Source: a virus
Virus record (IMG/VR): IMGVR_UViG_3300033182_000499
Span: 1-64,000 of that record
DNA length: 64,000 nt
Reading direction: 5' to 3' (one strand)
Shown: piece after piece, positions 14,811 to 64,000 of the stretch
Layout: the number at the start of each line of letters is the position of its first letter
Position numbering within the stretch: position 1 is the first letter of the stretch
The notes under the pieces: model-generated
The model's database searches: none
What the model was told of the DNA's origin: nothing
What the model saw: only the letters and a program-made list of their open reading frames with translations
Position numbers and translations under genes: made by a program

Positions 14811-16750
14811 TACTTTATTAGTGTTAGTTTTTTGGTTTCTACACCTCTCTCGGTGGTTAGTCTGTAAAGATATACACCCGATGAAAGGTTTTGTGCATTA
14901 AACTTCACAGTATAAGTTCCTGTGTTATTAAATCCTTTATACACATTCTCAATAAGTCGTCCGTGAATATCATAAACATCTATTGATACTCGTTGTGGGT
15001 TGATGATTGAGAAACTAATGTTGGTTTCAGGGTTAAATGGATTTGGATAGTTTTGGTCTAACTTAAATCCTTTTGGAAAATCACCCTCATCAATTACAGG
15101 AGAAATTACGTGTAAATAAACCTTACCGTTTATTACTTCGGTTGTAAAGTCATCACCTAATCTGTCACCTGTATTAAAGTTGTCACCAAATCTAATAGGA
15201 GTTTCACCAACACCTGTTACTTCTTTTGCTTTAAACTTAAACTGTATGATAGTTTCCATACTGTCTGTGCGAATTGGGAAATTACCCGTACTCGCGTCCA
15301 ATCCACCATACTTTACATTACCCAAACTATCACTATTAAAGTATAACTGCCACGCGTTTGGTAAATAAGGAGTGGATGCTTCTATAAATTGTAATACCTT
15401 GGGGTCATAGTCTAATTCAAAGTTAAACGAATGTACGTCCTTTTCGGTAGTATTCATTGTTAGGTCTACCAAAAACTCATCACCCGTTGATACTTGTTGG
15501 TCGGGTAGTTGTGCGATAATATCAGTAGATACTACACGTGGAACCATTATCTTCGGTAAAGCACCCTGTGGTGGAGTAGAACCACCCAATGATGTTAGGT
15601 TCACATCGCCCATTATCACTACATAAAAGTTTTCTTCGGTGTCTGTAATACCATTGTATGCGTTTAAGTCGTATGTCCAATTAGTTTCCTGCGGAGATAT
15701 ACCAAGTGGGCCAGTCCCTACACCTGTTACTACGGTAGTACTATCCCCTTTGAGGTATTTAATTTGTTCGGGTTTGATAATCATTACATCTCTATACCCA
15801 CCCGCACCTAAAGTACTCCAATTAGTATACGCACCTGAATTGTAACCATACATTACATAAGAGTCAGCAATTGTAGATGTGTGTGAGTGGTTTACATCAC
15901 TAGCCAATCGTTGATATGCGTTGAGGGCTATTTTGTTGTTTGCGTATAGAAGTTGTTTGTATGAGTCTGCGGTAGAAAGGGCGTTGTCACTATCTATGGT
16001 TTCAGTCTTAAACAAAAAATCAATGTCAGTAGTACTGTTGTTTATAGCACCATAGTAATGTTCGTAATATACCATCTCGTAGTAACCTGTTGATGTTGTC
16101 TTTGTTGGATTACCACCCAATACAGTTGTAATCAATGAATTACCACGGTATAGCTGATACTCTAAATTCTGTATACCTTTATTGGTTCCATAGTCCACAA
16201 CATAACCACTATACTTTCGGTGTGGTATGTTTACTGCCCCACCGTGAGAGTATGTCCCAATAGATATATCACTTCCGTTTGAGTTGGAACCTACCGCAGA
16301 ATATCCAGCAAATGTAAATGCTGTTATGTTTTGTTCGTTTGAGTAAAGAAGTTTGGCAGCAATATTACTCATTTTAAGAGTTACAATGGCGGTGTCAGGG
16401 AATGATGTTACAGTTGAACTCCCTGTGTATACAATACTAACCAATACCTCATCATTGGTTTGGTCTTCGTTATACGACATTGTATAGTTGTTTGATAAAT
16501 TACTTTTAATAGTATATAGACTGTCAAAAGTATCACCATCGTATGCTACCTTAAACTGAACTGAAGTTACATATCCTGTGTATGAACTTCCGTCAAAGTA
16601 AATCTCTACGTTTGTTGTGTCATTGAATGGTGAAGTGTCGTATTCGTCAGTCAGTACCAACCAAGGTGAACTCCCACCATTACCCGTTGTTTGTCCAAAT
16701 ACTAGTACAGGACATACTAGTAGTAAGAATAGTGTGAAAAGTTTTTTCAT
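14810..16750 (-). CDS. Secreted protein with dockerin-like, cohesin-like and T9SS sorting domains (646 aa)
   Basis: Signal peptide about residues 1-19 (LFLLLVCPVLVFGQ). A dockerin-like EF-loop region lies near residues 270-310 (ASDVNHSHTSTIADSYVMYG), a cohesin-like beta domain about 420-545 (FLVDLTMNT, FNFELDYDPKVLQFIEA), and a type A T9SS C-terminal domain about 565-646 (LDQNYPNPFNPETNISFSI ... GVYLYRLTT ... KKLTLIK). In bacteria the last domain sends proteins through the type IX secretion system. A phage gene with it implies export by the host machinery to the cell surface. Neighbouring CsgG and barrel genes support an envelope-remodelling block. Confidence 0.85.
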   Translation of the reverse strand: MKKLFTLFLLLVCPVLVFGQTTGNGGSSPWLVLTDEYDTSPFNDTTNVEIYFDGSSYTGYVTSVQFKVAYDGDTFDSLYTIKSNLSNNYTMSYNEDQTNDEVLVSIVYTGSSTVTSFPDTAIVTLKMSNIAAKLLYSNEQNITAFTFAGYSAVGSNSNGSDISIGTYSHGGAVNIPHRKYSGYVVDYGTNKGIQNLEYQLYRGNSLITTVLGGNPTKTTSTGYYEMVYYEHYYGAINNSTTDIDFLFKTETIDSDNALSTADSYKQLLYANNKIALNAYQRLASDVNHSHTSTIADSYVMYGYNSGAYTNWSTLGAGGYRDVMIIKPEQIKYLKGDSTTVVTGVGTGPLGISPQETNWTYDLNAYNGITDTEENFYVVIMGDVNLTSLGGSTPPQGALPKIMVPRVVSTDIIAQLPDQQVSTGDEFLVDLTMNTTEKDVHSFNFELDYDPKVLQFIEASTPYLPNAWQLYFNSDSLGNVKYGGLDASTGNFPIRTDSMETIIQFKFKAKEVTGVGETPIRFGDNFNTGDRLGDDFTTEVINGKVYLHVISPVIDEGDFPKGFKLDQNYPNPFNPETNISFSIINPQRVSIDVYDIHGRLIENVYKGFNNTGTYTVKFNAQNLSSGVYLYRLTTERGVETKKLTLIK

Positions 16751-42235: not shown

Positions 42236-42430
42236 TTACTTCTTTTCCCAAAGTAGATGTTTCCAAGTATCACCCTTCACTATTTTTCTGATATTAGTTG
42301 TTGATACTTTATAATTTCTTGCAATAACTCGGATGTTCCTATGTCCTATACTCCAAAGTGTTCGTATTTGTTGTACGTCTCCACTTGAGAGTTTAGACAT
42401 TGGGTGTTGTTCTCCTAGTAATTTTGCCAT
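42236..42430 (-). CDS. Helix-turn-helix protein, possibly homing-endonuclease related (64 aa)
   Basis: The motif KLSSGDVQQIRTLW followed by RNIRVIARNYKVSTTNIRKI and VKGDTWKHLLW is the helix-turn-helix/NUMOD-like module seen at the ends of HNH homing endonucleases in phages. It shares a base with the polymerase C-terminal piece and lies just upstream of gp45. It may be a free module or a remnant of the same mobile element that marks the polymerase gene. Confidence 0.6.
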   Translation of the reverse strand: MAKLLGEQHPMSKLSSGDVQQIRTLWSIGHRNIRVIARNYKVSTTNIRKIVKGDTWKHLLWEKK

Positions 42431-43299
42431 TAGAAACTAAAAAATTGGTTTGCCTTTAAGTTGATGTTCTCAAAACTTTCCCAATCAAGGGCTTCGTAGA
42501 AATCAAGTATCTTCTTTCTTAACAGTCTATCAAACATTTTGTCGTAATCCGCATATGTGGATATAAAATCTATAACCTCTTGTGGGTCATCACTACCTTT
42601 GAGTGCCATAATGTCTAGGTTTAGTGGGTTTTGTTTAAGATACATCCACACAATCTTTTCACCATCGGTGATAGGTGGGATTTTATCTTCTAATCCCATT
42701 TCCTTTAAGAAGTTGTTGTAGTAAATGGCCGACTTGACGTGAGCAGGTGTACCTTTCTTTACATCACTCAACCCACCTCTAATTGAATATTTCTTTATAC
42801 CCTTTACACCTGTGGGTTTACCTACTTCCATAAATGGTCGTTTGGTTAGACTGTCTTTAAAGTCCAATAAATTACTATCCACCACATCTTTCTCAACACC
42901 ATTGAGTAAGTCCATCAACATACTCTTCATAAATGTCTTAAATGCCTTTGGAAAGTCAGACCTAACCACATCTAATCCTTTGTAATCAATATCATCTTTG
43001 GTTACACCGTTCTCCCAAATGATTTTCTGTACGTATCGTTTCTTGGAAATCCATATACCTCTACGTGCGATATTCTCTTGTTTAATCTCAAACCGATGTG
43101 AACCTTGTAGGTTAAACATACGTTTGGCCATTACGTCATAACTTTTGTTGATAAAGTTTTGTACTTCTTGTGCTACATCTGCAATCAAAGAACACATAAG
43201 TTCTTCATCGTCAACATCAATGTCAGGATTTTTGGCTCTAATTACAGGTATTGCCGATAAGAATGTAGAGTCGGTTAGGTGTCCGTGTATATAACCCAC
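42430..43299 (-). CDS. DNA polymerase gp43, C-terminal part (after motif C; 289 aa frame)
   Basis: From DSTFLSAIPVI the chain is a normal B-family palm/thumb: ARRGIWISKKRYVQ is the KKRY motif and the rest fits thumb helices. The recorded frame opens with a GTG at 43297-43299 and would read YIHGHLTDS, which has lost the first Asp of DTDS. The other frame just upstream gives VIYTDT; joining the two across five bases restores VIYTDTDS. The enzymatically needed reading is thus not the simple frame. See the recoding site at 43270-43323. Confidence 0.8.
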   Translation of the reverse strand: MGYIHGHLTDSTFLSAIPVIRAKNPDIDVDDEELMCSLIADVAQEVQNFINKSYDVMAKRMFNLQGSHRFEIKQENIARRGIWISKKRYVQKIIWENGVTKDDIDYKGLDVVRSDFPKAFKTFMKSMLMDLLNGVEKDVVDSNLLDFKDSLTKRPFMEVGKPTGVKGIKKYSIRGGLSDVKKGTPAHVKSAIYYNNFLKEMGLEDKIPPITDGEKIVWMYLKQNPLNLDIMALKGSDDPQEVIDFISTYADYDKMFDRLLRKKILDFYEALDWESFENINLKANQFFSF

Positions 43300-43323
43300 T
43301 CAAACGGATTACTTACACGGACA
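43270..43323 (-). promoter_or_regulatory. Candidate ribosome-bypass site in DNA polymerase motif C
   Basis: In mRNA order: codon ACC (43278-43280), stop UAA (43275-43277), second ACC (43273-43275), then GAC TCT. A hop from the first to the second ACC (+5) yields T-D-S and the consensus VIYTDTDS. Upstream, 43314-43323 and 43280-43289 form a perfect 10-base-pair stem (24-nt loop) that ends on the first base of the take-off codon. The short frame entering the site is 43275-43361 (MKIKKIKRVGG ... VIYTDT). Confidence 0.6.
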
Positions 43324-43341
43324 TTAGAGCCTCCAACTCTT

Positions 43342-43488
43342 TTAATCTTTTTTATTTTCATATACTTTTATATTATTACAATAATCAATTTCTACAAATT
43401 TACAATCAAGTTCTTTCATAATGTTTTCTCTTCTCAAAACATCTCTTTCACTTAAACTACCATCGTGGTTGAAGTTATGAGTTAGTTT
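43342..43488 (-). pseudogene. Relic ORF between the polymerase pieces (homing-endonuclease-like)
   Basis: A 48-codon frame without its own start, reading LTHNFNHDGSLSERDVLRRE then NIMKELDCKFVEIDYCNN. The 'RD..R..N......C..EI.Y' order recalls the C-terminal part of Vsr/EDxHD-like homing endonucleases. It is in another frame than either polymerase piece and fills the gap between them. Identification is by eye and uncertain. Confidence 0.4.
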
Positions 43489-45260
43489 TTATGAATGAAT
43501 CCTGAAATTATTTCATCTACTTCTTCTAATTCCTTACCGAATATGGTAATCGTTTCACCGTTCCGTTTAACGTTATACATCACTTCCTCAAATGCAAATA
43601 CAGTTCCTTCATCAGTTTCCAATTCTATTGAGTTTCCCAATAGTTTATTGTAGTAATGGTTTGCCATATCACTACTGAACTTGATGACTTCTTGACCTAC
43701 TGATGTTACTGCGAGGGCGTTGTCCACATCATACCATCTCCAACCTTTAAGTCCCAAACAACCATAGATTGAGTTGAGTAGTACCTTTTGGATTATCTGT
43801 CTACTTTTATAGTATTCGTATTGGGCATCATTACCCTCGTTACCATACTTTTTCATTAAGTTTTTAAACTCAACTCGTTGGTCAAACCACGTTCTCAATA
43901 TCTTTGGGATTATACCATCAATATCTGTTCGGTAAAGTATACCGTTTGAGGATATACTGAACTTGGTGTCGTTAAGAAACTCACCGAAACCTTCTTTATC
44001 AAAATCGTATACACCGTCATTGATAATCTCAACTTTAATATTTGTGAGTTTACCTGAACTATACTCTTTAAAATCCCAATCTAATACCTTACCTACCTTT
44101 GTTTCAGGTGATATGTTTAGACTCATAATGATTGATGGATACATAGAAGTCAAGTCCAAATCAAAGATGTAGTCGTAACGGCCGGGTTTGGGTTGTTTTA
44201 CATACGCACCCATAAACGTACCCTCACTATCAGTTCGGGGTGGTCGGTTATCTGCGACTTTATTACCGTTTCTACGTAAGTAACAAAGAATAGAACCTTC
44301 CAAAAACCTACTTGAAGAATAGATGTTCTCATATGGTACGTGTCCTACCGACGCAATACCTATACTCTGTTCTAAAAACTTGAGTTTGTTTTCTAAATCA
44401 ACAATCAACTTTACGTCAACCAAGTTGTATTCTATGAACTTCTCAATATCATTCTTTTTTAATTGGTCTAATGTACCCTCATACTCAACCTTACCTTGGC
44501 CTAACTCAAACTCACCAACATTGTCTAACCGATAAGATGATAATTGAGTATAGGTGAAGTTTTTGTAAATAGGTAAGTAGTCTAAACAACTAACCCCTGC
44601 GATAAAGTATCGTTCTTTTCTATTATTGTATTCCACAACCCCAATCGGTGATAAGTTGTTAGCAAATGTAGTACCCATCACTCGTTTGGCACGATTATAC
44701 AAATACGGTATATCAAAAAAGTCAATGTTCCAACCTGTAACTACTGTTGGTGCACACTCTCTCCACTTACTGAAAAACTTGTCTAACAACTCTTCTTCAG
44801 TATCACAACGGAATAGTTTGTAATCATCTGTAATTCGGTTCTCTACCTCGTTAAACTCATCAATGATATAAACTCCATACTCTTGTGTAGTTTCATCATA
44901 ATAAGCAACTGATGTGATAGGATTATTACCTTCATTGGGGTCAGGTAATTGACCTTCCATACTAACCTCAATATCAAAGTAAAATCTGTTTTGCCATTTG
45001 GCGGGTTCATCGGTATGACCATATAGTTCTACCAATAGTTGTGTATCATTAGGAACATCCTTTTCATACGCCTGTGGGGCATCGTGGTAGTATGTAGTCT
45101 TCTTACACTTTGTACCGTCCAACGAAGTATATTCACCGTATGGGTCAGGAACAAACGCAGTCTTTCTCCACTCAAATACCTGATGTCCTTTCTCGTCATC
45201 CCAAAGATGAACGTTGTAATGGTTGTAGTTTATCTGTTTAAGATATATGTTTTGGTACAT
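43482..45260 (-). CDS. DNA polymerase gp43, N-terminal part (exonuclease and palm to motif B; 592 aa)
   Basis: B-family polymerase. Exo I is YFDIEVSMEG, Exo II VTGWNIDFFDIPYLYNR, Exo III YNLVDVKLIVDL; motif A is FDLDLTSMYPSII and motif B KVLLNSIYGCLG. The frame stops (TAA 43482-43484) after ELEEVDEIISGFIHKN, before motif C. The rest of the enzyme continues at 43361 and below. A split gp43 is known in some T4-like phages with homing genes between the parts; here the break is close to the active site. Confidence 0.85.
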   Translation of the reverse strand: MYQNIYLKQINYNHYNVHLWDDEKGHQVFEWRKTAFVPDPYGEYTSLDGTKCKKTTYYHDAPQAYEKDVPNDTQLLVELYGHTDEPAKWQNRFYFDIEVSMEGQLPDPNEGNNPITSVAYYDETTQEYGVYIIDEFNEVENRITDDYKLFRCDTEEELLDKFFSKWRECAPTVVTGWNIDFFDIPYLYNRAKRVMGTTFANNLSPIGVVEYNNRKERYFIAGVSCLDYLPIYKNFTYTQLSSYRLDNVGEFELGQGKVEYEGTLDQLKKNDIEKFIEYNLVDVKLIVDLENKLKFLEQSIGIASVGHVPYENIYSSSRFLEGSILCYLRRNGNKVADNRPPRTDSEGTFMGAYVKQPKPGRYDYIFDLDLTSMYPSIIMSLNISPETKVGKVLDWDFKEYSSGKLTNIKVEIINDGVYDFDKEGFGEFLNDTKFSISSNGILYRTDIDGIIPKILRTWFDQRVEFKNLMKKYGNEGNDAQYEYYKSRQIIQKVLLNSIYGCLGLKGWRWYDVDNALAVTSVGQEVIKFSSDMANHYYNKLLGNSIELETDEGTVFAFEEVMYNVKRNGETITIFGKELEEVDEIISGFIHKN

Positions 45261-62734: not shown

Positions 62735-64000
62735 TTATTGTGGAAATTCAGCACCTGTTGGTAGTACGTTGAAGTCAAGTACTATGAACTCTGCTGCCCT
62801 TGCAGGTTGAATGAATATTTTACCAACTAATTGGTTTCTGTCAATCACTTCAGGAGTGTTTACTGTTTCATCAACTACAACTCGGTATGCGAATAATCCT
62901 TGTTCTTGTTGTACTTCGTCTAAGTATGGTTCAACCAATCCTAAGAATCTATCTCTTGTTTGACTTGTGTTTTGTTCAAACACTAGGAATCTTGAGGTGG
63001 ATGATACAAACTTCTTCAAGTTAATCAACAATCTACGTACATTAATTCGGTCAAGTGCGGATGATTTAACTTGTAGTGTTTTCTGTCCGTAAGCAACAAT
63101 ACCTTGGCCGGGGAATGATACGATTGGGTTTACCTTACCATTGTAAAGTTTATCCATATCTTCTCGTTTCAGTCTTTCGTATAAGTTGATTGCTTCGGTA
63201 ATACCACCACGGTTAAGTCCTGCGGGTGCGAACCATTCAGCGGCAATGCTATCGTTAAACGCATACACACCACTCATTACCACCGATGGGGGTACGAATA
63301 ATGGTTTGTTGGTACTTGAATCAATCACTTGAACCCAAGGATAGTATGTACCCATATAAGAAGTGTCATATAGTGAAGCATATTCAACTGCTGTGTCTTT
63401 ACTATCGTTAATCCAAGTCAAGTCAGCAATATAGAACGCGTCACTTCTGTCTTCTACAATTTCTTTTGCTCTACTGATTACAGATGAACCGTATGTTTGA
63501 GTAACGCCAGGGGTTACTAATACATTATAGTCATATTCAAGTGGGTTAGAGATAGCATTTAACGCTCTAATGAAAGCCACACTACCACTTGTGGTTGCAC
63601 TTGTCAAGTCAATACCACCAACGTTGGTTGCGGATGATACGTTTGTTCCTACATTAATTGGTTTGTTAGGAGTTCCTGCGTTGAATCCACCTTGGAAACC
63701 GATTGTAAATCTACGGTTAAATTGGAATGTAGATGATGTTGCAGAAGTAGCAAACATATCAGTCGGTAGGTTAAAGTCAGAACTTGACACTGCGGATGTA
63801 TAAACCGCGTCATCAATTGGAGCCAAATAATGTTTCCAATTTAATGAACTATCAAAGTTAGAACCGAAGTGAGTTTTAGTAGAACCCGTTACATCTCCAC
63901 CTGCAGTCAACAATGGGAATGCAGGTACTTTAGTTGTTAGTGGTTGTAAATATCCTCTAAATCCAGCAGGCACAACAGTAGTTGGTACTGTGTCGTATCC
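62735..64000 (-). CDS. Tail sheath protein, partial (N-terminus outside window)
   Basis: The frame is open to the right edge (GYDTVPTTVVPAGFRGYLQP at the edge), so the start is outside the window; the GTG at 63971-63973 is internal. The C-terminal part has GQGIVAYGQKTLQVKSSALD, INVRRLLINLKKFVSSTSRF and IQPARAAEFIVLDFNV, which are the conserved sheath core and end. It forms the contractile tail. At least 421 residues are visible. Confidence 0.9.
   Translation of the reverse strand, partial: GYDTVPTTVVPAGFRGYLQPLTTKVPAFPLLTAGGDVTGSTKTHFGSNFDSSLNWKHYLAPIDDAVYTSAVSSSDFNLPTDMFATSATSSTFQFNRRFTIGFQGGFNAGTPNKPINVGTNVSSATNVGGIDLTSATTSGSVAFIRALNAISNPLEYDYNVLVTPGVTQTYGSSVISRAKEIVEDRSDAFYIADLTWINDSKDTAVEYASLYDTSYMGTYYPWVQVIDSSTNKPLFVPPSVVMSGVYAFNDSIAAEWFAPAGLNRGGITEAINLYERLKREDMDKLYNGKVNPIVSFPGQGIVAYGQKTLQVKSSALDRINVRRLLINLKKFVSSTSRFLVFEQNTSQTRDRFLGLVEPYLDEVQQEQGLFAYRVVVDETVNTPEVIDRNQLVGKIFIQPARAAEFIVLDFNVLPTGAEFPQ

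Follow-up and report, generated by a model that had tools for sequence, protein, structure and literature searches.

Organization of the polB locus

The window, i.e., the whole stretch of 64,000 nucleotides of phage DNA analysed here, carries on its minus strand a B-family DNA polymerase gene (polB) which is split between motif B and motif C. The N-gene comes first, followed by the tail of a homing-endonuclease ORF and then by the C-gene. The features of the locus are listed below, with the source of each in brackets.

43482-45260, minus strand: polB N-gene, with 3'-5' exonuclease domain, motifs A and B, an intein-like module and TAA (ORF, Pfam)
43482-43640, minus strand: C-terminal module of the N-subunit, SIELETDEGTVFAFEEV..DEIISGFIHKN and stop, intein (Hint)-like (alignments)
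43302-43642, minus strand: insert relative to the unsplit sister L005, 341 nt in place of 17 nt (blastn)
43342-43488, minus strand: remnant tail of a homing-endonuclease ORF, ending ..SERDVLRRENIMKELDCKFVEIDYCNNIKVYENKKD and stop (aligned with the endonuclease C-termini of L097, L103, L121, L150 and L149)
42430-43361, minus strand: polB C-gene, from ATG at 43361 through MKIKKIKRVGGSNVRVSNPFEWVIYTDT, the gap and DSTFLSAIP.. to the stop at 42430 (Pfam DNA_pol_B, 1.8e-7)
43267-43340, minus strand: hairpin AGAGTTGG-AGG..TGTCCGTGTA-A-GTAATCCG(TTTGAG)TGGGTTAT-A-TACACGGACA-CCT-AA-CCGACTCT (folds, covariation, comparison of gapped and gap-less genes)
43278-43280, minus strand: putative take-off codon ACC, Thr of DTDS (sequence)
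43273-43277, minus strand: five-base gap TAACC (sequence; absent in the sister L005/L011, TAACY in lineages B-F)
43277-43275, minus strand: in-frame UAA (sequence)
43275-43273, minus strand: putative landing codon ACC, the end of the gap (sequence)
43270-43272, minus strand: putative resume codon GAC, catalytic Asp of DS (sequence; homology to the unsplit sisters of other lineages restarts at the boundary between gap and DS)

The N-gene was recognized by Pfam as DNA_pol_B_exo1 (5e-26) and DNA_pol_B (1.6e-25), and its product is 93% identical in amino acids to the unsplit sister L010/L011. In alignments, the module at its C-terminus was absent from unsplit sisters and present in other split polBs. 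The endonuclease tail lies in another frame and overlaps the ATG of the C-gene, which begins with MKIKKIK; a MKIKxI start is conserved among split polBs. The sister contigs L005, L006 and L011, 85% identical to the window, have a single intact polB without the gap. Outside the locus, a tail-sheath gene lies at 62738-63973, and positions 14813-16750 encode a large protein whose domains, Cohesin and Por secretion C-terminal sorting, suggest a host among the Bacteroidota for this T4-like phage.

The gap in motif C

On the minus strand, positions 43295-43261 read GTT ATA TAC ACG GAC ACC, then TAACC, then GAC TCT ACA TTC. Motif C of the window polB has the form ..VIYTDT-TAACC-DSTF.., with UAA directly after the Thr codon of DTDS. 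The initial annotation of this DNA had described a stop inside motif C and a skip of five bases that restores VIYTDTDSTF, and the minus-strand sequence bears out this description. The perfect 10-bp hairpin mentioned there was also found, formed by TGTCCGTGTA at 43323-43314 and TACACGGACA at 43289-43280, and it sits in a longer pairing from 43340 to 43267. When approximately 12 kb were compared with the 85% identical sister L011/L006, the five-base gap was the sole coding indel which did not net to a multiple of three. Since all other coding indels relative to the sister net to multiples of three, a general sequence error is unlikely.

Recurrence in other phage lineages

An alignment search with the C-part returned 80 relatives, of which 71 were unsplit, and the others included a group with the C frame reading ..LTDSVF or ..VTDSVF. 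This reading is the frame signature of the same insertion, and the LTDS frame was present in L089, L097, L103, L121, L127 and L138. A pattern search with free bases after TAA gave 13 viral matches; all 13 were polB, reading CY or TG, and all had MKIK-type starts and hairpins. In 257 Gb of genome contigs the same pattern matched twice, neither time in polB. The arrangement of a MKIKxI.. start, a hairpin, the gap and then DS[VI]F was found in at least seven lineages besides the window, with the following take-off codons and gaps.

Lineage A (the window): ACC, TAACC
Lineage B (L145/L146/L151): ACT, TAACT
Lineage C (L097): ACT, TAACT
Lineage D (L103/L138/L152/L153): ACC, TAACT
Lineage E (L121/L148): ACG, TAACT
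Lineage F (L149): ACG, TAACC
Lineage G (L150/L154): ACG, TAATG
Lineage H (L123): ACG, TAAATG

All eight lineages have ACN followed by TAA; TAA was built into one search pattern, and lineages A, B, C, D, E and H were also found without requiring it. Take-off and landing codons are identical in A, B and C, and they are synonymous Thr codons in D (ACC/ACT), E (ACG/ACT) and F (ACG/ACC); in G and H, the take-off codon is ACG and the landing position is ATG. The segments MKIK..YxDT and DS[VI]F.. rebuild motif C across two frames in A-G, and in H they are in frame with a stop between them. Gap length, UAA and landing ACY are all kept in six independently placed lineages. In the TAATG (L150/L154) and TAAATG (L123) variants, stop and start overlap or abut within motif C, and a switch from hopping to re-initiation is possible for these.

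All gapped loci are metagenomic contigs, and no phage isolate matching the DNA of the element was found. Several of the gapped lineages were found in two to four separate metagenome assemblies; because of this, assembly error cannot explain the gapped loci. The initial annotation had named a second complete polymerase gene elsewhere in the genome, together with a missing junction peptide, as evidence against its reading. We searched for such a gene and found one polB per gapped record, a contig of 174,750 bp included, with the C-part intact; in the record of the window, no polB other than the gap-bearing copy was found. The gap is real and recurrent, not a one-off. In the openly accessible literature we found no published account of a MKIK-hairpin-gap element in polB.

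The hairpin

For the segment 43340-43267, the folding energy was between -36.7 and -38.4 kcal/mol (z = -5.2), a value which none of 200 shuffles equalled, and when the downstream half was held fixed, none of 2000 shuffles was as good. The five bases TAACC lie inside this pairing. In all eight lineages, motif-C codons make up the 3' arm of the core, which extends to about the first base of the take-off codon; the 5' arm codes for V-x-V-D or similar. The two arms covary, with nine double-change cells vs 3.5 in shuffles and a score of 0.396 vs 0.247 (0 of 500 for each); the choice of arms was made by eye and went by complementarity, so that the percentage paired is biased upwards, but the arms also line up by the encoded peptide. 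The covariation was lost when the arm registers were slid.

The 58 nt ending at the take-off codon fold to between -17 and -26 kcal/mol in all eight gapped lineages. The same fold in 83 gap-less polBs, among them the split but gap-less L008 and L009, had a mean of -5.6 and a minimum of -11.2 kcal/mol. Since gap-less polBs fold weakly, including the split L008/L009, the hairpin goes with the gap and not with the split. L009 has a significant hairpin of its own, in which other bases pair and which is not the gap hairpin.

The cassette and its distribution

In a tree of 93 C-parts, the gapped genes occupied approximately eight places, mostly beside unsplit sisters, and this scatter argues that the element is mobile. 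DNA homology to close unsplit sisters stops close to where the motif B helix ends, and it restarts at the boundary between gap and DS. Between the polB halves, lineages C, D, E and G have a full-length endonuclease ORF; in F, the contig starts inside such an ORF, in the window (A) only the tail is left, and B has none. The endonuclease of L150 contains NUMOD3 repeats (Pfam, 6e-22). The C-terminal domain of the cassette endonuclease resembles EDxHD by eye, and searches of Pfam and PDB gave no match for this domain. A free-standing relative was found in L157 (LR756508.1, about 112400-113400), and partial relatives in Prevotella Lak megaphages. A similarity of the endonuclease tail to a Pelagibacter phage was rejected as a chance alignment, as was one of the module to the polB of Melnitz phage.

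The best PDB matches of an AF2 model of the L103 module homologue were inteins (Npu DnaE with prob 0.99, TMq 0.67 and E 0.24), where the query had 48 residues and the E-values of the structure search were above 0.1. The Pfam family Intein_splicing matched the module with E 0.043. As modelled, the module of the N-subunit is intein-like in fold. In alignments, the residues of a split intein were missing from both sides: the module is without the block A half (N-terminal nucleophile), and MKIK..YxDT is without HN. We infer a history in which an old arrangement of split intein and endonuclease lost splicing and became the present two-chain polymerase.

A split polB with no gap was found at L009:4124-6840 and, in an identical arrangement, in the contig L008. 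Its N-gene ends ..NMASTTA and overlaps the start of the C-gene as ATGA (MKITQIKKTESHTHDWVIYVDTDS). The gap is therefore not needed for the split itself.

The 484-kb phage LR756508.1 (L045, 260000-268500) has a polB split at the same place by approximately 3 kb of other genes. This polB contains inteins, of which one sits in motif C exactly between YTD and TDS and another lies in the N part; the clamp-loader gene of the same phage has an intein-like insert too.

Proposed translation across the gap

As read from the sequences, the gap in split polB is best explained, we hold with good confidence, by ribosomes that hop +5 from one Thr codon to a matched one. A hop from ACC to ACC over UAA, aided by the hairpin, had been proposed in the initial annotation and is favoured by the comparative data; its assumption of a single gp43 has to be given up, as the polymerase is two chains. 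For this reason, the junction peptide would lie in the small C-subunit which starts with MKIKKIK.

The course of events may be pictured as follows. A mobile homing-endonuclease cassette would have invaded polB and split it between motif B and motif C, leaving an N-subunit that ends in a small intein-like module and a C-subunit translated from its own ATG (MKIKKIK..). After 28 codons, the P site would be occupied by Thr-ACC and the A site by UAA. The peptidyl-tRNA-Thr would then release, the mRNA would slide by 5 nt, and the tRNA would re-pair with the ACC that ends the gap. With decoding restarted at GAC, VIYTDT would be joined to DSTF and motif C would be whole again; the expected peptide across the junction is ..VIYTDT-DSTFLSAIPVIR. 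In general, a +5 slide from ACN to ACY would restore the motif exactly and leave the peptidyl-tRNA-Thr on a Thr codon. The arms of the hairpin would be unpaired while the 3' arm is inside the ribosome, and their re-pairing behind it would pull the mRNA in the direction of the hop. The basic MKIKKIK segment would at that moment occupy the exit tunnel. Such a basic segment (MKIKxIKK) is conserved 19-28 residues before the take-off codon, and it is found in gap-less split polBs as well. Spontaneous short hops are inefficient, and the hop signals would therefore have to raise the efficiency greatly. Points against the hop are that in E and F the third base differs between take-off (ACG) and landing (ACU and ACC, respectively), that in G and H the landing codon is AUG, and that the split polB of L009 manages with no gap.

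Alternatively, the polymerase could consist of three pieces, if MKIK..YxDT ends at UAA and the C-chain restarts at or near the stop. We regard this as unlikely for the class as a whole. In G (TAATG) and H (TAAATG) an ATG stands exactly before GAT TCN. The C frame of the window could be entered at a GTG 24 nt upstream (MGYIHGHLTDSTF), but the product from this GTG would miss the first Asp of DTDS. In lineages B-F, neither ATG, GTG nor TTG was found in the open C frame before DS. Since the C-part has no start codon there, re-initiation fails in the TAACY lineages other than the window, and the C-part must be reached by ribosomes from the MKIK frame. The landing ACY retained in A-F would also be left unexplained. 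In G and H, re-initiation and the hop are equally possible, and this is the main uncertainty of the class.

It is improbable that the genome is dead or belongs to a minority and that its gap reflects a recent inactivating mutation, with the hairpin acting as a hotspot, or an assembly error. The sister L005/L011 is without the five bases, and inverted repeats promote template-switch indels; such an origin of TAACC was considered, and a clean template was not found. Plain mutation or assembly error was dropped once the alignment search had shown the same LTDS frame in other phages. Indeed, no fewer than seven other lineages share the gap, several separate assemblies contain it, and each record has one polB; all of this speaks against both, as does selection, and for the class as a whole this reading is already contradicted. 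In the branch of the window, nonsynonymous and synonymous counts were 12/54 for the N part and 7/25 for the C part, similar to the sister. Within lineage D, differences affect 69 of the 280 downstream codons but 0 of 71 nt around the element; of the stretches that are identical in L103 and L138, the longest has 101 nt and spans precisely the element from MKIK through hairpin and gap. Judged by sequence comparison, the C-parts of approximately 280 codons are under purifying selection.

Very little credence can be given to a -1 (or +2) ribosomal frameshift before the stop as the source of the C-part. The C frame is indeed -1 relative to the MKIK frame in A-G, but in C, A and F it is open for just 7-9 codons before DS, a canonical slippery heptamer was not seen by eye in that stretch, the product would be without YxDT, and lineage H (TAAATG) requires no frame change. 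We think just as little of a removal of the five bases from the RNA, be it through slippage of transcription from one ACY repeat to the other or through cutting at the hairpin site followed by ligation. Direct ACY repeats flank TA in most lineages and a strong hairpin adjoins the site, but G and H are without the direct repeat, UAA would then have no need to be kept, and we know of no system that takes out 5 nt of RNA in such a way. Hardly credible at all is a rejoining of the polymerase through the insert, acting as a self-splicing intron or as an active split intein. The intein-like predicted fold of the N-module and the inteins in the polB of the relative LR756508.1 might suggest it, but an Rfam search of 42900-44200 gave no match, the 5' side offers no VIYTDT copy for splicing to use, the module has neither the N-terminal nucleophile half nor the C-terminal His-Asn, and the stop codon would stay with intron and intein alike.

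The +5 hop remains our preferred reading. On the whole, we consider it likely that many phage polBs contain a mobile endonuclease cassette with a 5-nt stop-hop between the catalytic aspartates of motif C, that this hop, with a co-evolving hairpin as its driver, is the shortest programmed bypass known in nature, and that two lineages moved between hopping and stop-start re-initiation at this position. The gap probably persists since it breaks up the endonuclease target at the DTDS codons, which would confer immunity. This would suggest that phages can, quite generally, use endonuclease-linked bypass gaps to tolerate nucleases that cut essential genes. In practice, polB genes in such phage contigs are prone to be annotated as broken or truncated.

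Comparison with known systems

In fractured genes, the halves are parted by an EDxHD endonuclease ORF and carry split-intein segments. The split polBs resemble them by a similar endonuclease ORF between the halves and an intein-like segment on the N half; unlike in fractured genes, the polB halves would stay separate chains, because the intein-like part is without splicing residues. In the Aeromonas phages 25, 44RR and Aes007, gene 43 is split into 43A and 43B, in some with a homing endonuclease gene between them (PMC2988022). Common to these and to the window is a B-family phage polymerase made as two chains. The positions of the split differ, as 43B of Aes007 starts before motif B and the window is split between motifs B and C, and it is here that a module is found on the N-chain and a gap in the C-chain.

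As for hopping itself, synthetic stop-hops include +5 and +6 hops in reporter constructs, as cited from Weiss et al. (1987) in a later review (PMC5009743). In both cases a peptidyl-tRNA crosses, or in polB would cross, a stop to a matched codon a few bases further on; compared to the synthetic hops, the polB hop would occur in nature and be conserved, and an essential enzyme would depend on it. The byp elements in mitochondria of Magnusiomyces capitatus are longer inserts, said to be largely independent of mRNA context (PMC5009743). They are likewise bypassed inserts spread within coding genes, but the polB element differs by its fixed gap and conserved hairpin.

The closest system is gene 60 of T4, with a homing-endonuclease split, an early gap, a stop next to the take-off codon, an upstream stem-loop and a basic nascent peptide (PMC5009743, PMC11194080). 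Shared with the gene 60/mobA cassette are a homing endonuclease which splits an essential replication gene and an early gap, after approximately 20-46 codons; shared with gene 60 are the stop beside take-off, the upstream stem-loop and a basic nascent peptide (KKYK in T4, MKIKKIK here). The codons are matched as in gene 60, exactly in three polB lineages and synonymously in three, and re-pairing of the hairpin behind the ribosome would correspond in principle to the motor that the 5' stem-loop forms in gene 60. For the T4 cassette, the gap was proposed to protect the host gene copy from the endonuclease (PMC5009743), and the polB gap, which interrupts the most conserved codons of the target gene, would by analogy protect in the same way. 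The differences are as follows. The gap is 5 nt in polB vs 50 nt in gene 60, i.e., ten times shorter, and it lies in motif C of a polymerase instead of a topoisomerase gene. The nuclease is NUMOD3 with an EDxHD-like domain (EDxHD by eye) vs HNH in the mobA cassette. Unlike in T4, the 3' arm of the polB hairpin ends on the take-off codon, and the joint of the polB cassette appears intein-derived. Finally, the case of gene 60 was long unique, whereas the candidate bypass element of polB occurs in approximately eight phage lineages.

According to a major review, it has long been assumed that the gene 60 bypass has counterparts, perhaps shorter ones in which the codons match (PMC5009743). The polB gap is a strong candidate for such a counterpart, recurrent and with natural sequence variants. 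As a minimal system of 5 nt, it would allow one to examine how a ribosome is made to hop by the refolding of a hairpin, a stop codon and a nascent peptide.
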